64,000 nt of DNA from Turbatrix aceti (lineage: Eukaryota; Nematoda; Chromadorea; Rhabditida; Panagrolaimidae): positions 8,621,725-8,685,724 of the forward strand of contig OZ017769.1 in assembly GCA_963969345.1 (NCBI GenBank). The letters are read 5' to 3'. The position numbers and the translations under genes are program-made. Below the pieces are notes generated by a model. That model did not search any database, was not told the origin of the DNA, and saw only the letters and a list, made by a program, of their open reading frames with translations. The stretch's first letter is position 1. Every line of letters starts with the position of its first letter. Shown piece after piece: positions 1-35,085 of this stretch.

Positions 1-1550
1 TCAAAAACTCGGCTGTCGTAGTGAAACACTTGTCAGTGAACTTGACCTCCTCCGACCTCATTGTCACTTTCCGCAGCGAGAAAAACCAAAAAAGTGGCAA
101 TCTGGTTTTGTCTGGCTGGCAATTGTGGCATGCAAAAAGCACCGGATGTCATATGTTTTAAGGACCCTATACAAAAAAAGCATGAAATATGATGCAGTAA
201 AGTGCTCGGTAAATCCCTGCTGAATGAGTTCAACGTCCAACGTTAGTCACTTCTCGAGAGTCAGATTTCCCGGCGTACCGCATAATTTTTTCACCCCATT
301 ACGGGTCAATGTAGTCTGAAGACACCTGTTTCACGCCAGCATGTTATTAGTTGGATCGGAAATAAGCAAGAAAGGTGCTTTTTGTTTTTTTAATGGACAA
401 ACCATAAAAATTGTGATTCTGGATTTACAAAGCCTAAATGCCCCCTATTGTTGTCCAACACCCCCCTAAAAGCCTCTTTTGCATCGAGCCTTAAAAGGCT
501 GCCTTAAAGGGTTCGATGCTCATTCCCAGCCTAATATTTGCCTGCCGGCCAAAACACTTGCACAGACAGTGTCAGCCATACTTGACCCTTCTCACCCCCG
601 TGGCACCCGTAATCTAGCCAAACCGGGTAATAATAAAAGCAAAGATATCGCTTGCTGGCTCTGTTGTTTGCCTCTTACCGCGAGCCATGTCCAAGACCAA
701 GACCATGAAAGCATGAAAACAGTCTAACGTGCCCCAGCTGGTACAAAAATCAACAAACAAAACAAAACCCTCAAAAATACATACATATTTATTTCTCCAC
801 AGCCTAAAAAAAATTCTCTATTTTTTTTTGAAAGTCGGATAACTTCAAAAAAAAGCAGATGCATGTGGATCGGAATCGATGAAAGAAAGGTAGAAGGATT
901 AATTGAAATGATCCAGGCACTATTATACGCTAGGAGAGTAGCAATATTGCGTACAGATGGTCGAGGTTGGCGGCATGGATCAACGGTGACAAAAGAAAAT
1001 TAACGGAGCTCGCTGAGGATGAGAAGAGTCAAGGTATCCAAGTGGCTATCCTATCCATGGCACTTAAGATGCATCGGATCATCCTTTTTTTCCCGACGAA
1101 TTGAATTGCATGCTTTTTTTCTGGGTTTTTTTGCATCTCTTTCATTTTTTTCAAAGCCTTCGTTGGCAATTAACTCTCGCGACTCTCGCGCAAAAGTTCA
1201 AGGCTAGCAAAATTGGACACTTATCGAGAACAAAAGCCTGCGTTTTGCTTTCAATTACTATTTCTACTCCTATTCCGTGTTTGTTATTGTGTGCGTGTAA
1301 CGACATGTTCGTTCGTTCCATGGATCAAAGCCGACCGACCGCCGGTCATTTTGTCCTGTCACCCCGGTTCTTGTAGTGTTGTTGCTTGTTTGATCAATGA
1401 CAATCTGACAATCAACCAAACAAGCAAACAGATCACTCGTAATTGCTGAACGAACGAACGGTGCCGGTGTCACCCGTGTTGTGTTGTCAGTCATGTTAGT
1501 TGTTCGCGCCCCTTCCATACAAAAATGAATGAATGATGAATCAACTTTTC

Positions 1551-1569
1551 CGCCGCCGCCGCCGCCGCC
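1551..1569. repeat. (CCG)n microsatellite
   Basis: About six uninterrupted CCG/GCC units in otherwise AT-rich DNA. No supported reading frame runs through it. Confidence 0.8.
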
Positions 1570-4500
1570 ATCACCGATGCCGCGTGTCCTCTCGTCTTCC
1601 TGTCTAGATGGGATACAACCGATAAGCGGGCAAGTAAATAACATAAAAAAGGGATAAAACAACGAGAACACGACATGCCATTACTATTACCATTACCGTT
1701 CGGTCTACCTGTTCACAACAAAAACCCGTTAATTGGGTTGTCAGAAGCTATGTTCGTTCAAGGTCCTTCTTTCTTTCTTTCTTTCTTTGATGGAGGCAGA
1801 AAAAAAAAGCAACGATGGCGCCTTGTTGAAACTTGCTATTCAACATTTTTACTGTTACAAAACGAAATAAAAAATCGTGCCAGCCGTCAATGTCTCAGAT
1901 TGACTGCCTTTTTGTCGGTTTAAAAAAATAAATCAAAGCCTCGCTCCAGACAGTTACCCGGCGTTATGGTACTACAAAAGATCCCTGGCCTTAACCTAAG
2001 ACGACTGGTGTTGACATGTGTAGACAGTCCCATTCGGAAATTAACGACGCTTAGCTCCTGTGCTTCTTATATGCCGAAAAGCAAGCGCGAAACAATTCTG
2101 TCCAAAATTACCGACAATTTTGGGTGGTTTTACGAGTATTTTTTGTCTTGCGCGCAGAACAGCGCATGTGGATGTGGATGCTCCTTTTGATGTCAGTCAA
2201 ACCATACGGAATTCTCCCGCGCAAGCAAGATGCCTTGCCTTTTGCCTCGCCGTCCCCGTCCGCTGCGCAGCGGATGGGTGAACAGCATTGTACCGGCGGC
2301 GCCATTGTCGTGCAAAAAGACGAATCGAATCAACACACACAAAAAAGTCATTGCTTGCGAGCGACAAAACGGAAATGTGTTACAAGCCTTGCGAAACCAA
2401 AGGACTCCGACTCCGAGAGAAGAACAGCCATATGGAATCAATTAAGCGTGGTCAAAGAGTCAAAGACCCCACAATTCGCCCAAACTTGTTCGTAATAGTT
2501 GTTTCTTTGTTCAAATTCCATTACATGTTTTTGTCGTCACCATCGTGCTAAACTTCCGCAACCGTTACTACAATGCAATTTTTTGTGCAGGTATGCTACC
2601 AAAGAAGGAACAAATTCGCGTACAGGTGCTAATTGTCCTACTCTTCTCTTTCTTCCCAGATTAGAAGGACTCCTACTGCGAGCAAAGCTGTCCAGGTTCT
2701 TCGTTCGTTCCCGCAGAGGGGACCTGGACCTTGCTGGCATTTTGAACAGTGAAACAAACCCTTTTATAAATAGTCGCTCTAGTGGCGATAATAGAAAGTT
2801 TCACATGCCCTGCAGACTAAAAACTCTTTCAAGCGAACATCCATCCTTTCACTAAACCAAACCACTCGACTGACCGTTTGCCTGCCTGACTGACCATTAC
2901 TATTTACGTATGTGTCAATGCCCAAAGTAGCCATAACGCAACAATTGGTCATTCAGACACTTCCCAGCCCCCATACCTGTAGAAAACGAAAAATCAACAC
3001 CTGTGCTTAAATCGACATGGATTGATTTCGGTCAAAAAAATTTTCAGGGATATTTTTGACATGTATACACCAAAAAATTTAAATAAATGCGGATATCATT
3101 GCATTTTTACGCCGTTTATGTCGTTCATCCGTATGGATGATGCGGAAGATCCATCAAAAGTCAGACAAGCGTTGCTGTGTCATAGAGTGACAGGAATCGC
3201 TGGAAGGAAGCTCCCAAAAACAGTGTGTGTGTGGGTGAGTCAGAGTCAGAGTCACTAGTCGCGCGGAAGGATGCGTGACCGAAGGGAGACAGGAGATGAT
3301 GATGCGCTTTCACACTTCCGAAGAGAATACAAGAACGAACATCGTAACATTGTCTGTCTGCTCGTTTGCATCTACATCTGCATCTGCTTGTCCTTCAGCC
3401 ATGGCACATTGCGTGTCAGAGCAAGGAGGACCTCTCAGTGGTTGCTGTGATTTTCAAATAAAATCCTTCTTCATTCGTTCCCACGCGCGCGTGCTATGCT
3501 GGGCCAACCGCATTAGCACGTCTCCCAAATGACCCCTTCCGGCCAAGAAATACATATAAAAAAAGTTGTTTGAAGACTTGTTTGTTCGTTTGGGACTACT
3601 ATGTAAACCCACATCTGCTTTAAAATTCAATCAAAGAAGGAAAAACTAAAAAAAAAACAGAGCAAATGCATGACAAAAAAAGCGGTTGCTTTGCTTCATG
3701 ACAGCCCAACACGCTTGGACGCTCTTGCCATGCTTTGAATTGACCCGCAAGACGCAAAACAAGATGACAAGAACAACTCAAACAAAAAATAAACAGAAGC
3801 CACGGCACCCCCTGCGGTTTTCTGGCTCTCGCCGATGGATGTATCAGTCAATCAAAAATAATGCGGTTCAGGCCGCGCGTCCGCCGCCAGTTTTCACCCC
3901 ATCCAATAAAGCTGCTAAAGTGGATGCTGTTTCAAAAAAAAAAATGATGCTAATAAAAAACATATACATTTGTGGTTGGCGCGTTCGAGTCAAAAAAAAA
4001 CAAAAAATGTGCAAAAAACCAACCTTGAATCTCTGTTCGAGATCGTAGAGACACCTGGATTGGCACCTAGCACTGAGGAGGTCGTCGACCGATGCCGTGG
4101 CAGCCCCGAGCAGGGTGACAGTTATACAGAATGCACAGAAGATCATCCGCAACATTGTTTTTCAACCCTTGGACAGACAAAAAAGGCTTATTGCATTTCT
4201 CAGATGAGATCGCTGGATCACTGAAAAGAAACTCCTGGTAAGTTTTCTGGTCAACCAACGCGATGGACGACGACGACGATAAAATAAAAATAGTAAAGGC
4301 ATCAAAGTATCCTCGGGGATATGTAATAAACCAGGAAAGTTTGAAAAAAAAACTGGAAGAAAGTATTTTATACATTTCATGTCTCGGGTAACGACTATGA
4401 TGATGAAGAGGAAGATGATGCTGCTGCTGACGGACGGCAGCCCATCACCACATGTCACAGTGATTCTGGGTTGTAAAAGTCACAGGGGAAAAGTAATGGA

Positions 4501-7310: not shown

Positions 7311-9487
7311 CCGAATTTATGCTACGCTAATGAATTTATAAGTCCGATACCTGGGCTATAAATTAGCATAAATCAACAATTGTACCCCAAAGATTCTTCC
7401 AACGTCGGCACAAATTTGAGCAAACAAAAAAACTAAAAAATTGCGAACAGATAAATGGGATTACACCAGCAAAGTGGATGCGATGCGCGAACGAACCAAC
7501 AAGGGAGATGGAAGGGGTACGAAAGGGAACATTTGTGTAGACTCGAGATTTGCATAATTCTTGGTGCCGCGCAATATCCTACAAAGTGCCTCGCTAACAG
7601 TGCGAGCATTCAGTCTCTTGTTCCCTATTTGGCCAACGGATTACTCGGCGTGTAAGAGGGTGCCAAGCGAGGCTGATGTGGGGCGGTTTAGTCCTACTTA
7701 GGTATTCACTACTTTGCTCTTTTTTTCTTGAAAAGAGCAAGAGCAGGAGATTACCCCGATATTGGTGTCGTCTCGACGCTAATGCTAATGTAAAGTGGGT
7801 AGACATGCGCGCAAGAAGGGAAAGGGATAATTGAAGTGGTTCCGACCGACAGGTGACAATTCCAGGGGTTGTTGGCACTTTTCAAACCCCCTCAAGATTT
7901 GTACCCAACGATGTTTTTCAGGTCAAAAGTAAACTTTGTGACAGCTCAATCAGGCCAGAGGCATCCATTACAGTTGGCATTGTTTTTGTTTGGTCTATTT
8001 ATAAAAGTTGGCAGTTGCCGCGCACGCTAACGCATTCGCCATTAGCCGGAGTCCCCAGGGGCGATAAGCGGGGCGCAAGCCTTGGCATTGGGCCTGCAGC
8101 AGACCGTCTAATTGTCTTTTTTTTCACCTTGGTGGCAGATTTACGATCCAGGTTGATGCGCGGCAATGCTGGGTGCTTTAATGACTGCCGCCGGTAGTGG
8201 AAATGGATTAAAAGTAAAAAGTGGCAGTACAGGTAAATCAAAAAGTAAAAATGAGAAACAATTTTTAAAAGGGCCCTTAAATAAAAAAAATAATTTCTGT
8301 TTCAAATTTAAATTGTATTTCATTTCATTTCCTTAAAAAATCTTAAATCAAAATTTTTTTGACAAAATCATTAGAAATGATTGAAATTGAGAATTCGAAA
8401 AGACGAATTCGAGTCGCAAACCATGCTTTTGGGCACGACGTTGTTGAAACTTCGGAACGTCAGCTGACAATATTTCACAAAACCTGAACGAAATAAAACT
8501 TACAGATTTTCGTTTTCACCTAAAATACATAGGTGAAAAGTAGCAATTCCTCGTGATATCCAGCGACGGTTTGGTACGGAGGTATCCTGAAATGAGCATC
8601 AATGAAAAACACTATAAAACAAATAAACACAAATAAAGTACAAAAAATCTAAAAAATAGAAAAAAATGAGAAAATCATGTGAAAACGGCAAAAAAATACA
8701 TCATTCAACATATTTGTTTGTTCGCGCCAAAAGACAGGCGGTCAAGGAACACGGTAATTCGATACATATTACAAAAAAATTACCGTAACTACGAGCATTA
8801 TAAAAAGGCACACAATAAAAAAGCACCTAAAATTTTTTTTCGCCAAAACAGGCAAGTGGCAGTAATACGGTCGTATTTATACGCAAAAGATTACGAGAAA
8901 ATTACGATCGCTGTGACTTGGCACATATTGCCAAGTCGACGTAAAACTCCGGCAAACAATTTTTGGTTTTCTGTGTTTATCTGCACTCCCTGCACTTTCC
9001 ATTGTGTATGCGTGTTTTGCTAGAACGACGGTTCTATTTTACATTAGCGATAACGCCGCTTATTAGTCAGAAGTAAACTGCAGAATGTTTGGTTTTGTAC
9101 CTTTTTTTGAGGTATGCAATTGATCTCTGCCCTTGCGAAAGGTTTAGTGACCCTTTCGTACTTTGAATTTTGCGTTTTCAATTTTCATGAGATCAAATTT
9201 TGCAACTTTTCGCATGCTTTAGTTTTTTACTTATTTCGGTTTTGCAATTTATATTTGAAAAACCAAAATTAGTAAACATCTAAATCATGAAAAAAGTTGC
9301 AAACTTTGATCTTGTGAAAATGGTACAAAATTCGGAGTGGTCTCACTGAACTCTTCCAAAAGTGGTTGAGAAATATAAATTTTGGAATGCTTTGGATTTT
9401 CCATAGCAAAAAATTGCTGAATATTTTATCGTGCATCAGATTGTCATTTAGAAGCCAGTCTACGACATGATTTAGTTTCGACGGATC

Positions 9488-9572
9488 AACGATTTTGCGA
9501 AAACCAATGCTTTGTTTCCAAGTTGTGAGATACCATGGGTAGAGCTTAAATCTGGGATACCAGATTTTTCTG
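9488..9572 (+). repeat. Inverted repeat arm, left flank of the UGT gene
   Basis: About 85 bp here are closely matched in reverse complement at 13131-13220, including GTGAGATACCATGGGTAGA and AAATCTGGGATACCAGAT. The two arms bracket the whole UGT gene and its nearby repeat debris. They may be two independent insertions of one repeat in opposite orientation, or the ends of a composite segment. Confidence 0.7.
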
Positions 9573-9601
9573 ATGCCGAATTCTCCGTCGCGCACGCGCG
9601 C

Positions 9602-9943
9602 CAGTGTTGTCGGTTCTGAAAATTTTTCGGGTTCCCGAACCGAATTGCAACCGGAACTTTTCAAACCGCGTGCGAAACAAAATTTGAAGGATTTTCGTGT
9701 CAAAAGTGTTCAAAAACAAAAAAACATTATTTGAATAGGAACTTATAACCGATTTCTATGCGCTTTTTTTCACTCTGAGAGCTCGTTTTTGCCGTAATTT
9801 GAACTCATGTTTAAAATCCGGCAATTCGAGTTCCTGAAACCGGAACCGAAAATATTTTTTCGAGTACTCGGAACCGGAACTGAAAATTAATTTTTCGTTT
9901 ACCTGGAACAGACTGTTTCCGGTTAGGATACCCGACAACACTG
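9602..9943. mobile_element. Small hAT-like non-autonomous element
   Basis: A 342-bp segment bounded by a perfect 12-bp inverted terminal repeat, CAGTGTTGTCGG at the left and its complement at the right. The interior is rich in CCGGAAC, GAACCG and TTTTTCGG motifs and encodes nothing recognisable. CAGTG ends are typical of hAT-superfamily elements, but the 8 bp next to each end do not match, so no target duplication confirms it. A right-end fragment with the same AAAATTAATTTTTCG and CCCGACAACACTG occurs near 12805-12853. Confidence 0.55.
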
Positions 9944-9981
9944 CTGATATTCTAAATATTAAATAAACGGCATTATTTCTA

Positions 9982-9987
9982 TTTATT
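9982..9987 (-). terminator. Poly(A) signal of the UGT gene
   Basis: AATAAA on the minus strand about 20 bp past the UGT stop codon, in a suitable position to direct cleavage and polyadenylation. Confidence 0.6.
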
Positions 9988-10005
9988 ATCAGTTTTATCA
10001 GTACA

Positions 10006-12210
10006 TCACAAATTTTTTTTGCCTACATCCCGTGATTTGAGCAAGCCCAACGAAAACGACAAAACAAGCTTCAACAAATAAACAACACCAATTACAACGA
10101 TAATGACGATGGCACCGGCTGCCGCGTAAACATCCAAGTTTTCTTGGACAATGTAGCTGAGATCCACGGAAGCAGGTAGAAGTTCAGGGAAGCGTCCTCC
10201 GTTTGCCATGGCAAATTCGACGTTCTTGACGAGCAACTCTTCGGGAGAGAACGGACGTGTCGCCAGAATGCGCTGAATGCGCTGGGCGCTCTTGCTGAAG
10301 TTGTCGTTTTTGAGGATCTCGTTGATCTGGGCTTGAACGAGTTTCGACGTTTTCCCCAGAGCCACCCGGTCGATGGCAAGTCCCCAGCCGTTGCGCTGAA
10401 TGACCTGCGCATTGCGCTGCTGGTCATACATGAGCGGCAGGAGGAGAACGGGCTTGCCGGCGATGGCGACCTCGATGAGGCTGTTATACCCGCCGTGTGT
10501 GATGAACAGCTTGAGGCGACTGTCTTTTAGCAAAGTCGGTTGGGGCACCCAGTGCGTTATGTGCACGTTGGAGTAACTCGCTGCCAGGGCGGCTCCCTCA
10601 GTATCTTCCGCATCAAATCTGACAATGAATTGATAGTCGGAGAAGACTGCGAATGATTCCAAAAGGTGTTTTTTGACTTCATAAGGCATATAAGCGGTAT
10701 TGGCATTAGAACCCATGCTGAAAAAGATAAAACCTTTTTTTCCCTTGGCAATGATGGTTTCCAATTCTGGAGATAAGGAGTTTGTGACAGAAGCGTTGAT
10801 GCCAAGGCCGCCAATATTGATAACATTATCCGTCGTTGGTCTCGGAAAATCAATGAATTCCGTTGCCGAAACAAAAATAAACGGTGTGTGATGAAGGATC
10901 CACGATTTCACATCTCCAAACTGCGGATCGAGATAGTTTCTGTATAAATCGTCAACCAATCCATAAGCAACTTGAAAGTTTTTATGTTTGAAATGTTCGT
11001 ATGCGTTTCTGACTCTTTGAAAAAAAGTCATTTTGTCTGGTAGTGCAACGTCGATTTGAGAAGGGATATATCCCGTTGGCCATGGAATACTAAAGAGTTC
11101 AGCAATGTGGTGGGACAGCGGGCAACTGTTGATTAGAAAGTGGACTGGAATGCCTAGGTACTTTCCTAGCGCACTTCCGCACGGGAAAAGTTGTTCAACA
11201 AAAATAGCATCGAATTTCGCTTCTTTGAGATCTTCTATCTCCTTTCTGCTCGTTTTTATTCCTTCTGAAATGGATTTATAGATTAACAATCACGATAAAG
11301 CCACAGTCTCGATTGGAAAATAGTTTTTGGATGGTTTTTAGGAAATTTTTCGTGTTTTCTGTTTTATTATAATTTTTTGGAGTTTTATCAACTTTTAGTA
11401 AATGTACAATGCACCAGAAGTTGTTTAACGACACAAAAATTTTGAAAAACGTTGACGAATATATTTTTTGATCCCGGATTATAACGGATATATCAGTTTT
11501 TCACTATCAACTTTTTTTGATGCATCAATCTGTCTCATTGGGTACAAAGGTTTCGAGGGTGTAGAATCAATCTGCTTCACCGTTTGTGAGTTATAAAAAA
11601 ATTCCTAATTATTGATTGATTACTGATTTTTTGATATCACCATTAAATTCGCCGTCAGTGATAACCCCCAGTGCCACACTAGCATCTACAATAATAAAAC
11701 AGAAAACACGCGAAAAGACCTAAAAACCATCGAAACTGTTTTCCAGTCGAGCCCATCGTGCAATGTACGTTAATTGATACTTACGTGCACAAGATTTTAA
11801 TGTTGCTTCGATCCAGGCATCGGAGGGGAATTGAAGAATGTCTTTGATGCTTTCCGGTCTGAAAGCCTTGTCCAAAACACGTTTCTGGTATTCCGAATAT
11901 TGGCTTTGTCGAGATTGCACAACATTGCCCAATGGTACAATTCTGGCGTGCTTGGTATTTTTAAACGAGAACGAGGGAATGGTGTGTTCGAGACTGATAA
12001 GGGTCTGAAAATCTGTCATATTTCAAATACCCCAAATCCGAGACTTACCACATTGTGACCGGCTTCGGCAAGGGCATCGGCAATTCTGCCATTGCTGATC
12101 ATGTGACTTTTCGAATTTGTTACTTGAAAAACAGCAAAGTTATAACACCAGCCGGCATCAGAAATAACTATGAAAAATAACAGTACAGAGAACCAATACC
12201 TGGTTAGCAT
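10006..12210 (-). CDS. UDP-glycosyltransferase (UGT, GT1 family), 3 exons
   Basis: Transfers a sugar from a UDP-sugar to small lipophilic acceptors, with the catalytic part in the ER lumen. Exons on minus: 12210-12049, 12004-11785 and 11264-10006, giving 546 aa with all phases in register (introns 44 bp and 520 bp). The N-terminus is a signal peptide (about residues 1-22). A likely catalytic His follows in SKSHMISNGR (H36). The WVPQ element and the UGT donor signature (FITHGGYNSL through MYDQQRNA, about residues 381-427) are intact. A C-terminal membrane segment (about 508-529) leads to a short cytosolic tail ending KKNL, a KKxx ER-retrieval signal. Length and order match animal UGTs, so the gene looks functional. 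The start is the first ATG before the signal peptide; an upstream in-frame GTG was not used. The acceptor substrate cannot be told from sequence. Confidence 0.93.
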
Positions 12211-12771
12211 CTTGTTCACGAATTAACCAACCGAAACTGACTGTTGATCATTCGCAAAACAAAAAGAACAAATGTCGGCAGTTTTTCTGTCAAAGGTTCA
12301 ATTGCACAAGATAGGTGTTGGGGAGGTTCGTTGCGCACCGCGTGCACACGAGTCCTCTCGCCAAGAATGTTGATAATGCGTGCACGCATCAGACATCACG
12401 CATCAGGCCTGATATCAGGCAACTCTGCGTTTGTTACTCTACTTTCTGTTATGTCTGCTTTCACATAAGAGGAAGGGGAAAACACTGACCTCTTTAATTT
12501 TGTAATGAGTAATTATGTACGAGTAAGAGTAATAAAGTAAAGTAAAGTATTTAAAGTAAAGATCACGTGCAATCCAGATCAGATCACAGATAATTGAGAT
12601 CACATCACTAGAAATTTTAAATTTTGCAACTTCAAACACGTCCGCATTGCTGGTTTTTCGAAGAATACGATAGTTCTCAACAAAAAATAATTTATTTTTC
12701 ACTTTTCGCGTCGAAATGAGTGTTCTCGGGAACCTAAACCCTAAATTCCGAGATTCTTGGGTTTTGTCGAG

Positions 12772-12798
12772 TCAGATCAGATCAGATCAGATCAGATC
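12772..12798. repeat. (TCAGA)n tandem repeat
   Basis: Five to six units of a TCAGA/GATCA pentamer, next to a fragment of the hAT-like element. Looser GATCA-containing units occur at about 12575-12605. Confidence 0.8.
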
Positions 12799-12804
12799 GC
12801 AGAT

Positions 12805-12853
12805 AATCCCCGAAACCGAAACCGAAAATTAATTTTTCGGGTACCCGACAACA
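12805..12853. mobile_element. Fragment of the hAT-like element
   Basis: Carries the right-end sequence shared with the copy at 9602-9943, including AAAATTAATTTTTCGG and a terminal CCCGACAACACTG. No matching left end is present, so this is a truncated copy. Confidence 0.5.
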
Positions 12854-13130
12854 CTGCCCAAACCTAACAAAATCTGGCTTCAGGGCATTTTTCAAATGTG
12901 CTGCTACGTGCGTGCGCATTACTTTTTCGACCAATGTGAAAAAGACGGGCTACAAGATTTTAATCTTCAGTACAAAAGGGTCAGTACAAAACGGAACTTT
13001 TTTTATAATTACCAGAAGCCATAAAGCAACGTTAATAACCAAAAATCAATAATTATTGGAAACCCAGATGTTTTTTAAAAAATCTGAGTACGCCAATCGG
13101 TTTTTCGTGCAAGAAAAATCAGGGGTCCGG

Positions 13131-13220
13131 CATCAGAAATATCTGGTATCCCAGATTTAAATTCTACCCATGGTATCTCACAACTTGGACACAAAACATT
13201 GGTTGTGGCAAAATCGTTGT
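13131..13220 (-). repeat. Inverted repeat arm, right flank of the UGT gene
   Basis: Reverse complement of 9488-9572 with scattered mismatches; shared blocks include TGGTATCCCAGATTTAA and CTACCCATGGTATCTCACAA. Non-coding. Confidence 0.7.
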
Positions 13221-13779
13221 TTTGTCGCCTTCACCTTATTCTTAAATCCTGTCGCTCGGCATCTAAATTCCTAAATTTGCGTTATGCAAGATTTTTCACA
13301 ATTGGATCAATGTGTTTTTACATTCTGTTTTGTTTTTTAGTCGGCGAGTCGTGGTTTTACCGCACTGAAACTCGAGCATCCCAATTGCGCACCGCATGCA
13401 CCTCAGTTGTTATAACTTGATGCGGTAACAGCTAGCTGGTCAGTCTGCTAGCCACGCGATCGATCGGCGTGTCTGACTGATCGGTTCCCCTATTGACAGT
13501 CAACACAACACAATCCTGCAAGCAGGTTACCGGACGCTGATTTTTTGAAAAGAAGGGGGCTATGGCTATTAGCACGAAGGAGTCAAGAAGCAGCGGAATG
13601 GTCCTCAAGGAGAACGACGACTCTCCCACTCGACGACGACTGCTGACAACAACTCGCACGCGGGAAACGAGATTATCAGACCCTCAGGCGATGGATGCAT
13701 CGGACATGGATCCGACTCACTCAGTCGTTTGTCCACCGTGCAGGCTCTACGCCTCTCCCGTATCTATCCCAGAGCCGCC

Positions 13780-16974: not shown

Positions 16975-17720
16975 TAAAATAGAATCAAGTATTGTCGTTC
17001 GAACTGGGCTACTGGCGTTTTTCAAAATTTTCATTTTTGACAAAATTAAAGGAGGTGTACTAGAAAATTCATTACTTGGTAAAAAATAAAGTTACACATG
17101 CGGTTAAAAATGATTTCGAAGCACAACAAAATGCTCTATCTAATAAAAATATGCACATGCTTCAAAAAAATTTTCAAATGCCTGAAAAACTCAAGCTTAC
17201 AAAAAATTTTCCTGAAATATGAATTTTCAAAACTTTTTCGAAGCGTAATCCAAAAACTAAAATCGGCATCGCATTCTACAGTATCTTTTACATCTGGAGC
17301 GATTGTTTCAGAATTTTATATTTTTTCCGCGCGCCAGTGCAAATTTTCTCCTGAACCTCCCTTTTTTTGTTGAGCAAACACCAAAATCTTTCAAAGTAGG
17401 GTTCGGTAAAAAAATCGGCATGGATCGCGTTCGAAATGCATTTACGCGAAAAGTTAGGGTCCGGGGCAGAAATGAACGCTGAAGCGAATGGCGTACTCAG
17501 TTTTTTAAATTGAGTTCTAAAAAGTTCCGAAAACCTAGTTTTTCTCAGAAATTTCATTTTTTTCGAAACTTCTAAGGTGATAAGGTATAGTTTTTTATTC
17601 ATAATCAGTTAGAGAATTTAGTTTCGCTTCACAATTGCTTTTGTTTGCCTTCCTAGCTAACTTAGTTTATGCCCCGCGATTTTTCTACCATACCTCCTTC
17701 GATTTGGTTAATTTTGACCA
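16975..17720 (+). repeat. Diverged tandem duplication, unit A
   Basis: This unit aligns over about 750 bp with 17997-18745 at moderate identity. Shared blocks include GGTGTACTAGAAAA, CGAAGCACAACAAAAT (CGACGCACAACAAAAT in B), TTTCTCCTGAACC, CAAAGTAGGGTTCGG and TACCATACCTC. There is no conserved reading frame, so the duplication appears non-coding. Confidence 0.7.
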
Positions 17721-17996
17721 AATTAAAAAAAAGAATTATGTCAGCATAAAGAACACCCCTGAAACTGTCCGTCAACAAAATTTCATAAAAGAAACTGAAT
17801 TTTGGGCCGAGTTACATTTTTTTGTAATTTTGTGCGAAATCCACATCCTCAAAATGCATTGACTCGCGCGCGCAACATGCGAAAGCCTCGGCAGTCTGGT
17901 GCGCTTTGGAGCTCTGGACAAAAGTCGGTTGAATTAAATTTATTTAAAAAATTCAAAACAATGAGCGTTTATTGTCTATTGTCTTTCTTTTTTTAG

Positions 17997-18745
17997 TACA
18001 AATAGAATCGAGCATCGTCTTTCAAATGAGGCGATTCCCGTTTTGCAAAGTTGGCATTTGTGACAAATTTGAGTAGGGTGTACTAGAAAAATCATATTTA
18101 TGTACGTAATAAAGATCGAAACCCAATCCAAAATGCATTCGACGCACAACAAAATTTTCTTTCTAACGATTATATTTAGTCCTACCCTAATGATTAGGCA
18201 AGTGCAAGAAAAAATTAAATTTTTGAAACAAAAATTTTGTTTCGAAAATTTCGAAACATTTTCAAAACCGGATCAAAAAACGAATATCAAAATTAGATTC
18301 CGCAGCATCTTTTACGTCTAAGGGCAGTGTTTCAGAATTTTTTCTCTTTCCGACGCGCCGGTGTATAATTTCTCCTGAACCCTACTTTTTTTGAGTTCCA
18401 GGCAACAAAAATTTTCAAAGTAGGGTTCGGCAAAAAAATCAACAAACGGCGCGTTTGTTATGCATTTTTTTGAAAATTTAGGCTCTGGGGTAAAAATGAA
18501 CGCAGAATACAATGGTGCTATCAGTTTTGTGACTCGGGTTCTAAAAAGTTTCGAAAACCTAATTTTTTTCGGAAATTTCAATTTTTTCGAAACTTTCAAA
18601 GTGACAAGGGGTATATTTTTTTTCAAAATTAGTTAGAGAATTTTATTGCGCTTCAGAATTGCTGTCCCACGCATTTTTAGCTCTTCTGGTTCATTCACAG
18701 CGATTTATTTACCATACCTCTCTCAAATTCGACAATTTTGGCCGA
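17997..18745 (+). repeat. Diverged tandem duplication, unit B
   Basis: Second copy of the unit at 16975-17720, in the same orientation, with about 275 bp of unrelated sequence between the copies. Conserved blocks are spread along its whole length, and gaps break any open frame. Confidence 0.7.
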
Positions 18746-19216: not shown

Positions 19217-19336
19217 GTGATCAGAGTCACATAGACTTTCACACGTCTTTTGATTACAAATGTTCAGCATGATGCCGGCATGAACGAAACACATGATGAA
19301 AACCAAGACGAGAAGGTATCCAGGCAGAAGCTTCAT
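19214..19336 (-). CDS. Small secreted Cys-containing peptide (putative)
   Basis: A 40-residue product beginning MKLLPGYLLVLVFIMC, with a hydrophobic signal peptide of about 20 residues. The predicted mature part is short and has three Cys (NICNQKTCESLCDSDH). Upstream on the minus strand lie a TATA-like TATTTATATG (about 19418-19428) and a leader with GCAATAACTACAGTCAAC; both are kept in the mirror copy at 19783-19990. The final GAT CAC TGA coincides with the edge of the adjacent repeat, so the original C-terminus may have been replaced by the insertion. No family was recognised; small size makes this tentative. Confidence 0.4.
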   Translation of the reverse strand: MKLLPGYLLVLVFIMCFVHAGIMLNICNQKTCESLCDSDH

Positions 19337-19478
19337 TTTTGGAACGATGAGTGAAGTGAAGATGAGTGAAGGCGCTCGCTCGAGTAGGTTGACTGTAGTT
19401 ATTGCTTTCTGCTGAAGCATATAAATACTAGCTGCCACGTCCTGGTGGCAACGTGGCTGTTGCATTTAGGAACAAAAC
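19274..19478 (-). repeat. Left arm of the inverted peptide-gene duplication
   Basis: About 205 bp match 19783-19990 in reverse complement. The match includes the signal-peptide codons, the leader, the TATA-like box and the upstream GCAACAGCCACGTTGCCACC. The spacer between arms is about 300 bp and is itself palindromic. Confidence 0.8.
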
Positions 19479-19536
19479 CCGATGACTCAAGAATCACGAG
19501 GCATCGTGGATCATTTCAGTTTCAATACACACATAC

Positions 19537-19661
19537 TTTTTGACAATGCAATTATTACAATTGAAACGGACAATGCAGTTTTAAAGAAATGCTTTATTAT
19601 TACAATTCAAACGGACAATTCAGTTTTACCGTTTCATTTGTAATAATTGCATTGTCAAAAA
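19537..19661. promoter_or_regulatory. Palindromic spacer between the divergent peptide ORFs
   Basis: TGACAATGCAATTATTACAA followed by TTGAAACGG (19537-19569) is repeated in reverse complement at about 19629-19661, and a direct copy of GACAATGCAATTATTAATTG follows at about 19743. It lies between two divergent TATA-like sequences, so it may act as a shared bidirectional promoter or be a foldback element at the centre of the duplication. Confidence 0.45.
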
Positions 19662-19782
19662 ATATCAAAAAGTTTACAAAAAAAATCAAAATTTTAATCG
19701 AAATTAAAAAAAAATCTGTTTAAAGAAAAATCAAATTGTATTTGACAATGCAATTATTAATTGAAACCTCAAAACGCCACCG

Positions 19783-19990
19783 GTTTTTGCTCCTAAATGC
19801 AACAGCCACGTTGCCACCTGGACGTGGCAGCTAGTATTTATAATAATACTTCGGCAAAAAGCAATAACTACAGTCAACCCATTCCAGCAAGCGCCTTTAA
19901 CCTCACTCATCGTTCCAAAAATGAGACTCCTGCCTGGATACCTTCACGTCTTGGTTTTCTTCATGTGTCTCGTTCATGATGGCATCATGC
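19783..19990 (+). repeat. Right arm of the inverted peptide-gene duplication
   Basis: Mirror copy of 19274-19478. It keeps CGTTGCCACCTGGACGTGGC, the TATA-like AGTATTTATAATAAT near 19833-19847 and the GCAATAACTACAGTCAACC leader. It ends within the peptide coding region, where the copies diverge. Confidence 0.8.
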
Positions 19991-20019
19991 AGTATCTCTG
20001 TAATCCAGAGCAGGCATGA
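19921..20019 (+). CDS. Small secreted peptide, mirror paralogue (putative, maybe degenerate)
   Basis: A 32-residue product beginning MRLLPGYLHVLVFFMC, related to the peptide at 19214-19336. The predicted mature part is only about 12 residues (GIMQYLCNPEQA) with a single Cys, and an acidic Asp interrupts the end of the signal region (LVHDG). It is shorter than its twin and may be a decayed copy. Promoter-proximal sequence is conserved with the twin. Confidence 0.33.
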   Translation: MRLLPGYLHVLVFFMCLVHDGIMQYLCNPEQA

Positions 20020-26959: not shown

Positions 26960-29442
26960 TTAGTTGCTCTCAATGATAATGGGTTTCTGGACTTCCGCAG
27001 AGACGTTTGGCAGCTCAGTGGTCTGTCCTGGCGTGTGTTCCTGGTCTTCGACGACTACGAAAACCGCGTAGACGATGCCGGCGACAAAGAGCAGAATGGC
27101 AACCGCGATGGCCTTGATGCTGCACGGCTGATGCGCGACAAGCAACGAAACAGCGACGTACGCCAAGCTGAAGATGACCTGCGCGAAAGTGAGCGCAGAG
27201 GCCGGAAAACGACGGTTGAGTCCCGTCAGGCTGTAAAAGTGTCCGCCGACGTCAAAGCTCAGCAGGATGAGAGCGAGGATGACGAGCAGCGCAGACGCGA
27301 GTTTGGATGACGCCACGACAGACAAAATGAGCAGGATGGCCGCGCCGGAAAAGGCGATGGAGTTGAAGCCTTTGGTTTTTGTATCGACGGGCAGGGTGAG
27401 TTTGTGAAACAGGTAAATGTCCTGGAGACGGGTGATGAGCTGGAGGAAGAGTCCGATGATCAGCAGGGGACCGAGGAGGGCGGGCTGGTCGATGAGCAGG
27501 TAGGCCATCGCAATCGACTTCGCCGCGAACGCGAGCCACGTTACAGCGTTGGACTTTTCGGTGTACAACGGCTTGAGGGGAATCTAAAAAGTTTGAAAGC
27601 AGGGATCGGGGAAATGGGTGTTTTGGGGGAATTTTTTTTTTATGGTTTCGACGAAGTTTGTGTTTTTTTTGGCAAACAAAATTATTTTTTCGTGTTCGCG
27701 TTCGTTCGCAAACATTTTTTTTCATTTTTTTGTTCGCGTTCATTCAAACAAAAATTTTTTTGCATTTTTTTATTTGCGAGGAAAAAATGTACGCTCACAA
27801 ACAAAAAAATTGATAAAAAAAATATGCCACAATCGTTTTTTCGATGATAAAAAAAAGGAAAACACCATTTCTCAACTTTAGCTATACAAAATGCAAAAAA
27901 ACTGTTTTCATAAACAAGAAAAAGCATAAATATTACCAAAGTTTACGTTTTTTTCCAAAAATTAAAAAAATTTGCCTAAATAAAAAAATGTTCGCTGTCT
28001 GTTTGCGAACATGGTCAAAATTTTCGTGTTCGTTAGATTTGACAAACAAAATTGTGCACTTGTTCGTGTTCGTTTGCGAACGAAAAAAAACGAATGTTCG
28101 CATTCCTTGGTTTAAAAATTTTTTTTAGGTATTCAAAAAACTCACTCTCACCCGGTTGTGCTTGCTTCTGCCGTCAACAGTTGTGCGATTCGCCTGGATC
28201 TTATTCTGCTCCCGAATGGTCACCTTAGCGTGCTCGCCAGGTGTATCCCGGAAGATGATAAACCAGAGCGCAATGACGAGAACCGACAGCAAAGAAAGAA
28301 CCGGAAACGCGACTTCCCAGGCGTCAAGTGAGCAGAAAAAGTTGACAACCGTGTAAGCGATGATCGCGCCGAGCTGAATAAAGCAGGAGAGAGCAGCCAT
28401 AAAAATGTGGCCCTCATCCAGCGGGGACCACGCGAGAGTGACCGTGCCGATGGCCGGGAAGATGACAGCGACCGCCAGGCCCTGGACAAAGCGGAGCACG
28501 AGCAGGGGAATGACGCCGAGGGCAGCTACGAGGGGCAGGAGACCGGTCGCAATGGCTGAAAGCACGCCGGCGATGGCGACGGTCGTCCGGAGGCCTCGAC
28601 GGGCCTGGAGACGGGAAAAGAGCAGCACGCCGAAGAGCGCTCCGACAGCGCCGACGGTGAAGATGAGCACGAGGTCCGTCGAGGTGTAGTAATAATCCGC
28701 GGGCTTGTCGATGACCTTGATGCGGCCGTTGATCTCACCGCTCCAGGTGATGTTCGTCAGTTCAACATTCGCAGGATCGATGGACGTCAAATTCTGGGTT
28801 GTTTGGTCGACAATGTCCAGAGTTTTTTGTCCAGAAGCGAGTTTTTCGAGTAGGTATTTTTTGAGGTTGTCCACGATGCTTAAATCCAAGTCCGAGATGT
28901 TCAGTCCTAAAAAAATGGAAAATAACCAAAAAAACCAAAAAAAGTGACAAACCATTGCTGAACTGAGAAAAGTCGACCTTTGTGGGATCCAGGGCCTCAC
29001 CGGCACGCTCGGCCAGTCTGACACCCACTTCCTGGGCGACTCGCTTGACAATCCGGAGAAAAAGAGAAGGATTGTGCCGAGCAAGCTTGAACGTCCTCCA
29101 GTCAAAGCCGATGGACGGCGTGTCGATGTCGGGGAACGACCATGCCGGAACATCGGCGGTCGGTGGCTTGGGTGCATCCGGGGGTCGCGGGGGATCGAAG
29201 TCGACCTTGTCAAAAACATCTGAAAAATATTAAAAAAAAATTGATTGCACGTTGTTCGGCAGAAAAAAAAATTTATAAAAAAACAAACCCAATCCAAGGT
29301 CAATGGTAAAGTTTTCGTAATGAAATTGTTCCTCGGTCATGCACCGGATGGCCCAGTTGATGGATAAAAAGTTGCCAAAAATGACGGCCAGTGCCAAAGT
29401 TGTCAGGGCCGCTATTATGATTCGGTATCTTTCTTTGAACAT
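26960..29442 (-). CDS. SLC17-like major facilitator superfamily transporter, 4 exons
   Basis: A multi-pass membrane carrier, probably for organic anions. Minus-strand exons 29442-29289, 29219-28953, 28906-28152 and 27583-26960 join in phase to 599 aa. The first membrane segment (about 8-30) is followed by an unusually long loop (about 40-200) with Pro-rich DPPRPPDAPKPP and N-glycosylation sites (NLT, NIT). Next come SRLQARRGLRT (MFS motif A position) and RFVQGLAVAVIFPAIG, which fits the SLC17 R-x-x-Q-G/F-P-A pattern. The segment ending the N-half (FRDTPGEHAKV) and the restart IPLKPLYTEKSNAVTW match the SLC17 central loop. The C-half has further membrane segments and a polar tail. The long loop and low similarity outside the motifs make the substrate unknowable. 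TTTTTTCAG lies 10 bp before the ATG with no visible donor, which suggests trans-splicing. The last intron (568 bp) holds a GTTCG repeat. Confidence 0.83.
27640..28105. repeat. GTTCG-rich dispersed repeat, copy 2 (in intron)
   Basis: Lies inside the last intron of the SLC17-like gene. Words such as TCGTGTTCGCGTTCGTTCGC, AACACGAAAAT and GTTCGTGTTCGTTTGCGAAC recur in both orientations, ending with AACGAATGTTCGCATTCC. Related to copies at 22989, 39840 and 41110. Confidence 0.6.
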
Positions 29443-31330: not shown

Positions 31331-32416
31331 ATTTAAGACCCACTCTGTGAGCTTTTTTATTCGTAAGGTGGACCGTCCGACACAGGCATTTTACAACTTC
31401 CGATGTTTTGTGCCATAGTTGTTGGCACCCATAGGGAGGGTCAACTTTTCGGTATGTGACATTTTTCAGATGCCGGATTCCGGAGATACGGGCTTCTGCA
31501 ATTTTCGACGTCAAATTTTCATATTGCTTCTAAAATTCTAATTTTTGGTACACAGGGGTATCTTGGCACGAGAAATCGACTGGTGTATTTACTTTTGTCA
31601 AAAAACATCTGTTTGTTTTGAAAAACCATGTTTTATGGTTTTCCCGCCTATTTTCGTCCGTTGCTTGGCTCCATCATCCGTATTTTACTCGCCGAGGCCG
31701 TTTTCACAGTGAATTCTAACATTACATATTGTTACCTCTCGCAAGAAGTCAAAGAAAAAATTTATTTGCATACCTTTTTTTCTACAGAAACCATTTTGTA
31801 ACGCCAACTAGGGTCAAAAACGGGCAAAAAGTGCACAGAATACGTCGGAACGGGTCTCTTTTCATGTGCGCAACGTGCGAACGCGCGCCGAACTGCGACG
31901 CACGCATACCGCTCTCTTCTTTCTCGCGGTTTTGCCCGTTTTTGACCCTAGTTGGCGTTACAAAATGGTTTCTGTGGAAAAAAAGGTATGCAAATAAATT
32001 TTTTCTTTGACTTCTTGCGAGAGGTAACAATATGTAATGTTAGAATTCACTGTGAAAACGGCCTCGGCGAGTAAAATACGGATGCTGGAGCCAAGCAACG
32101 GACGAAAATAGGCGGGAAAACCATAAAACATGGTTTTTCAAAACAAACAGATGTTTTTTGACAAAAGTAAATACACCAGTAGATTTCTCGTGCCAAGATA
32201 CCCCTGTGTACCAATCATCAGAATTTTTGAAGCATTTTGAAAATTTGACGTCGGAAACTTCCAGGAGCCGTAGCTCCAGAATCCGGCATCTAAAAAATTT
32301 TTGATAGGGGTATTTGGACCCTCCCCATAAGTGCCTACAATTTTGGCACAAAACATCGGAAGGTGTAAAATGCCTGTGTCGTCGGAAATAAAAAAGCTCA
32401 CAGAGTGGGTCTTAAA
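31331..32416. mobile_element. Large foldback (hairpin) element
   Basis: The left arm (31331-31829) is the reverse complement of the right arm (31929-32416), with a spacer of 99 bp. The inner part (about 31660-31829 against 31929-32100) differs at only about two positions in 150 bp. The outer third has more mismatches and indels. Both strands therefore encode the same short open frames, which are by-products. No transposase is present, so the element is a non-autonomous foldback transposon or a palindromic duplication. A transcript would form a long double-stranded RNA. Confidence 0.9.
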
Positions 32417-32658
32417 AAAAAACTTTCGCCAGAAAGAATTATTTGAATTCAAATAACGCATCTTGCGCGAATGTTGTAAAGTCGTTGCGGGAATTGATAA
32501 CTGTTCATTTTGGCTGCAATGTAAATATTCTTTTGAATAATTGACCTTTATTTTTTGGACGTTTCTACAACATGAACCATTAACTTCAAGAAGTTTCAAG
32601 CTTTACGGCATTTGAAGACTAAAAAAACATCTGTGCAGGGGCCACAAAATTCTATTCC

Positions 32659-34951: not shown

Positions 34952-35085
34952 ATTGATGATACCGTAACGATGTTGTAAGGTCCTGGAGCGAAAATTTCAA
35001 AAATTACGATTGATGCCATTTTTTGTCAAACCTATCGTTTTTTTACCGTTTTTTTTGCATTTCCATGCCTTAAAAACGTGTTTTA
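34952..35085 (+). repeat. 140-bp repeat upstream of sec-5, copy 3
   Basis: Same order of blocks as copy 2 (GATGATACCGTAACGATG, GGTCCTGGAGCGAAAATTTC, AACCTATCGTTTTTTTACCG, CCATGCCTT). It ends only about 35 bp before the sec-5 start codon, so it may supply promoter or trans-splicing sequence. Confidence 0.75.

Follow-up and report, generated by a model that had tools for sequence, protein, structure and literature searches.

A long hairpin between two gene frames

The window, by which we mean the whole 64,000-nucleotide stretch of Turbatrix aceti DNA analysed here, is part of an 11.5-Mb contig in a genome of 59.9 Mb and 28 contigs. A UDP-glucuronosyltransferase from the window has its top matches, at 47-49%, in Panagrolaimus, Halicephalobus and Panagrellus, which points to a nematode host, probably near these genera. 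The window contains a hairpin of 1083 bp, at 31333-32415 (Table 1), flanked by an MFS-transporter frame on the minus strand (28125-29336) and a Sec5 frame on the plus strand that starts at 34979. An earlier note, made from the letters alone, had described a hairpin of about 1.1 kb with 0.5-kb arms around a 99-bp spacer, and our measurements bear this out: the arms are 497 and 486 bp long and the spacer 100 bp. An inverted-repeat search of the window divided the structure into a terminal inverted repeat of 30 bp with 100% identity (31332-31361/32387-32416) and an inner one of 452 bp with 91% identity (31378-31829/31930-32381), whose halves are 100 nt apart. When the arms are aligned, 444 of 500 columns are identical and 56 differ by mismatch or gap. 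The differences are concentrated in columns 1-250, which hold 53 of them, versus 3 in columns 251-500; as the note had also seen, the arms of the window copy are almost perfectly matched near the centre and diverged outside (82% identity in the outer half).

Table 1 Parts of the palindromic element, in window coordinates
Feature	Position	Strand	Basis or remark
Left-end TTAA (target-site copy)	31333..31336	.	TTAA at 49/50 ends; two sister copies have single-TTAA empty sites
Palindrome, left arm	31337..31829	+	Inverted-repeat search, arm alignment
Left-arm stretch, left-arm state mostly new	31396..31505	+	Arm coordinates 64-173; clearest at arm 80-130
Spacer (hairpin loop), 100 bp	31830..31929	+	Conserved among copies
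Palindrome, right arm	31930..32411	-	Inverted-repeat search, arm alignment
Right-end TTAA (target-site copy)	32412..32415	.	TTAA at ends; empty sites

The element shows no sign of coding, in line with the note. The homology searches covered the right arm's stop-to-stop frame of 123 aa; a second such frame (154 aa, 32138-32602) extends beyond the element. The 123-aa frame had no homologue in a shared-word protein search and matched no Pfam family above cut-off, and its comparison with five sister loci (ten arm comparisons) revealed changes at all three codon positions and gaps in nine of the ten. A tandem-repeat search found no array within 31333-32415, and the window as a whole had no match in Rfam or in a plasmid collection. 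Further repeats in the window lie at 19247-20010 (inverted repeats of 114 and 65 bp), 9479-13227 (an inverted pair 3.5 kb apart) and 17222-18545 (a 300-bp direct repeat at 72%).

A dispersed family of palindromes

The genome-wide arm search that the note had proposed turned up other copies: the left arm matches at least eight places at 98-100% (65 matches listed, from the best 40 of 393 candidates). All eight of these copies, the window copy among them and hereafter called group 1, also carry the right arm, at 96.5-100% identity to that of the window and interrupted in one of them (L038). Since the same element recurs elsewhere with different flanks, the hairpin is not due to chance. The same eight places bear on whether it was made by the assembly, through an inverted join of one arm. 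Large palindromes can be such artefacts, and one in this genome (L091, with 100% identical arms of 3240 bp) may be, but the arms in the window differ at 56 columns and mostly the same differences between arms appear in eight places with different flanks; we give this explanation practically no credence.

The five uninterrupted group-1 copies differ by 0.09-1.66%, and the recent origin suggested by the note holds for this spread of copies. It does not hold for the palindrome itself, which is common to sister groups (L039-L042 and L045-L059) with the same architecture. Among 17 other complete copies, 15 are 1072-1614 bp long, mostly 1083-1084 bp; the remaining two measure 1630 and 1380 bp, or are of a similar kind with inserts. 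The window element, the sister groups and more distant palindromes have 20-bp ends of the TTAAGACCCACTCTGTGAGC type in common, and the distant members (L071-L073, L092-L094) are likewise palindromic. Allowing up to three mismatches, the terminal 20-mer occurs at 231 genome sites, versus 2 for a reversed control, and the end pattern of the sisters at 313, versus 0 in the control; the two sets overlap, and places are listed individually for the first hundred or so of each. Many dispersed copies that share their ends are what characterises a non-autonomous palindromic TTAA DNA transposon (MITE-like).

We mapped the family using 197 sites from the full listings of three end patterns, which, with two sites on contig C18 excluded, gave 143 merged elements spread over five long contigs. 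The central thirds of the contigs hold 26 of the 143, fewer than expected by length (binomial p = 8e-5), and contig C6 holds 8, about a third of its expectation by length (binomial p = 6e-6), in tests that set the length of C6 at an estimated 11.3 Mb and in which neighbouring elements may be non-independent. The element-poor C6 (~11 Mb) is perhaps a sex chromosome. Elsewhere on this contig (C6:10975560-10991627), convergent TTAACAGACACTCTGCGAGC ends stand 16 kb apart, perhaps by chance or as the ends of a large element.

Target site and empty sites

The note had also proposed a check for target-site duplications, and the duplications are there. Among 33 loci, 25 are complete (L043, L044, L051-L054, L060 and L062 being excluded), and TTAA stands at 49 of their 50 ends; the exception is a CGAA at one end of L058. 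Of the excluded loci, L052 has a changed left end, and L051, set aside as incomplete, has TTAT immediately outside both ends as a 4-bp direct duplication. A 4-bp duplication is therefore favoured over a TA inside TTAA. Abutting elements with one TTAA in common occur at L035, L072, L078, L081 and C1:7878118/7878134.

Searches with joined flanks, reported for the best 40 of 298 candidates, turned up empty sites, each with a single TTAA, for two of the 12 copies tested (L041 and L039) and none for the other ten. L041 sits inside a tandem repeat of about 1167 bp, of which 31 other units in two C2 arrays have the uninterrupted 124-base site at 98-99% and eight units on C4 at 93-94%; these empty units are tandem copies and hence not independent. 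For L039, one uninterrupted site was found at 98% and another at 92%. The arrays of the ~1167-bp unit lie at C2:9205475-9233385 and C2:8296450-8305903 (22 and 9 units matched), L041 being within the first. Duplicated target sites and empty sites thus both accompany the family, as in non-autonomous palindromic TTAA DNA transposons.

Because near-identical copies stand at different sites, with TTAA at both ends, empty sites and no coding found, the hairpin in the window is very probably a non-autonomous palindromic (foldback or MITE-like) cut-and-paste DNA transposon that makes a 4-bp duplication, nearly always TTAA. A TTAA-specific transposase made elsewhere would presumably bind the shared 20-bp ends and move the element in trans. 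The note had offered a foldback transposon of unknown family as one of its two readings, and was right as to kind: many genomic copies, TTAA flanks and empty sites all agree with it.

Its other reading, a long-hairpin RNA locus (hpRNA) selected to make endogenous siRNAs, draws on the predicted fold: as RNA, the element forms a single long, near-perfect hairpin (-792.6 kcal/mol, for the native sequence alone and without a shuffled baseline). One study also describes RNAs of C. elegans that contain inverted repeats or transposons, were isolated in double-stranded form and carry edits (PMC4282642). The palindrome is nevertheless explained without selection by a mobile family in many copies that has TTAA ends and empty sites, and the window copy is located between the MFS-transporter and Sec5 frames, which lie on opposite strands; we consider selection for siRNA production very unlikely. 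For the transposon, dsRNA formed when it is transcribed through would be a possible host effect, and by analogy a dsRNA role for the hairpin is plausible. Taken as a whole, the earlier interpretation is partly supported.

Search for a transposase

We inspected members of the family in two sets (L036, L064, L071-L074, L091, L094, L097 and L098; and L044, L053-L057, L061, L062, L065-L070 and L075-L090) and among them found no autonomous copy with the same ends: between the ends were nested inserts or short frames only. A profile search of the genome for the piggyBac transposase domain (PF13843, DDE_Tnp_1_7) gave no match; its controls were silent too, so absence is not implied. In this genome the hAT family profile found 17 matches.

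One member, L036 (4.2 kb, C1:11757847-11762436), at first resembled an autonomous copy, but its hAT piece (PF05699), for which no protein homologue was found, belongs to a separate nested element. This hAT-like element occupies about 712-3807, inside a sister copy's spacer, and has CAAGGC...GCCTTG ends (CAAGGCTTTGCATTCCGG) and an 8-bp duplication; inserts with 8-bp duplications are also present in L034 and L038. L043 contains no transposase but a chemoreceptor-like frame that falls below its cut-off, and L091 is a palindrome with no recognised transposase (its frames were not scanned). L091 itself (C2:11577041-11584345), whose 100% identical arms span at least 3240 bp around an 825-bp centre, is a recent inverted duplication or an assembly artefact. 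LTR-like inserts nested in TTAACAGACACTC palindromes were seen in L097 (575-2961, direct repeats of 395 bp at 100%) and L098 (1391-2460, 238 bp at 99%).

Origin of the divergence between the arms

The contrast between outer and inner halves is a group-1 trait. Seven of the eight copies have outer-half arm identities of 81.6-83.9% (L034, 90.1%), and seven of eight have inner-half identities of 96.6-98.5% (L038, interrupted there, 90.6%). Since seven of the eight share it, with a weaker form in L034, the contrast is older than the group-1 spread. Sister groups lack so strong a contrast (outer/inner 94.6/95.5% in L039 and 94.6/97.7% in L047), and L061 has 86.3/82.9%. In trees, inner halves unite both group-1 arms and outer halves separate them.

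Comparison with the sister groups indicates how the outer differences arose. At arm positions 30-45 there is an old difference between left and right, present in the three groups compared. At most differing sites in arm 64-173, by contrast, it is the left arm that has changed, the right arm having kept the ancestral state. This new left-arm stretch resembles TTAAGAGGTACTC, another TTAA palindrome family, at 88% (versus 66% to the right arm) over arm 80-130 and at 82% (versus 76%) over arm 130-180, and the patch also resembles the fragment L095 (93% over query 39-215). Because of the old difference at the ends and a patch akin to the TTAAGAGGTACTC family, the outer divergence of the window copy is largely an inherited mosaic structure.

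Copying between arms

The note had proposed arm-to-arm gene conversion as a source of the arm pattern, a suggestion that fits individual copies better than the pattern as a whole, given that the outer divergence also stems from the left-arm patch and the old asymmetry of the ends. The clearest candidates are two runs of opposite-arm states: the right arm of L034 has 18 consecutive left-arm states (arm 135-246), and the left arm of L037 has 7 consecutive right-arm states (arm 192-451). In L034, however, the donor may have been another copy, and in L037 the states at 192, 199, 208 and 451, four of the seven, could be retained ancestral ones, whereas the three at 211, 212 and 246 differ from the state in the sister groups. 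A third candidate, L056, has three private changes within 57 columns that are found in both arms.

Counts of later changes set a limit on how common such events have been. In group 1, 20 changes affect a single arm, 2 are common to different copies and 0 to the two arms of the same copy, in a count that omits the last 45 columns. Changes in both arms of the same copy make up 1 of 3 two-arm changes in group 2 and 3 of 17 in group 3, the latter all in L056 and compared with an expectation of about 0.8, a small count. Arm-to-arm conversion does take place, though it has been rare since the group-1 copies spread; L034, L037 and perhaps L056 are its instances. Ongoing conversion at each locus as the sole source of the arm pattern would account for the runs in L034 and L037 and the paired changes of L056. 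It is improbable all the same: the pattern predates the group-1 spread, single-arm changes in group 1 stand at 20 against none common to both arms of one copy, and each of the three instances has the alternative reading or small number given above.

Arm-to-arm copying, perhaps via a hairpin or repair intermediate, may help to keep the arms alike. A broader model, which we put forward as speculation with the odds against it, is a self-renewing palindrome: movement or repair would copy arm to arm, so that TTAA families with ~500-bp arms persist though they diverge widely; exchange of patches between families would give rise to new ones; and one putative nematode TTAA transposase would serve all.

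Comparison with known systems and significance

What had looked like a lone striking hairpin belongs to a transposon family of recent spread, for which empty sites exist. The family offers natural material for testing how palindromic transposons come about and how their arms stay alike, and it suits tests of whether such hairpins enter the dsRNA pathways of nematodes; its transposase, absent from the members inspected, is a definite gap. As to the superfamily, piggyBac is a candidate by its target site; Kolobok and Sola3, which also use TTAA targets, are candidates on that likeness, the comparison being by target alone. The name PALTTAA denotes palindromic repeats with TTAA.

Literature searches of open-licence texts returned no paper recognisable as on this TTAA palindrome family. 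The PALTTAA2/PiggyBac component is shared by the repeat libraries of C. elegans and C. briggsae according to a passage of PMC1431705, and the PALTTAA repeats described there resemble ours in being nematode, TTAA-associated and divided into many families with common short domains, a likeness of description and not of sequence. The piggyBac superfamily and its MITEs, as outlined in portions of PMC10813416, have the TTAA target duplication found here, and one piggyBac element has a 528-bp inverted repeat; the 5' motifs given in those portions are CACTA, CCCTC, CCCTT and CCCAT, versus GACCCACTCTG in the window element. Tm1 Mutator/Foldback elements of root-knot nematodes, in the sections of PMC3169594 that describe them, are likewise of the foldback type, with a mean arm identity of 93.15%. 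They differ in having mostly 9-bp duplications without site preference, as opposed to 4-bp TTAA here, and arms containing tandem motifs, whereas no tandem array is listed in the window element. Because PALTTAA2/PiggyBac, the Tm1 foldback and the piggyBac element bearing a 528-bp inverted repeat are reported in these texts, TTAA palindromes are a known kind, and the family in the window is a new, recently spread member of it.
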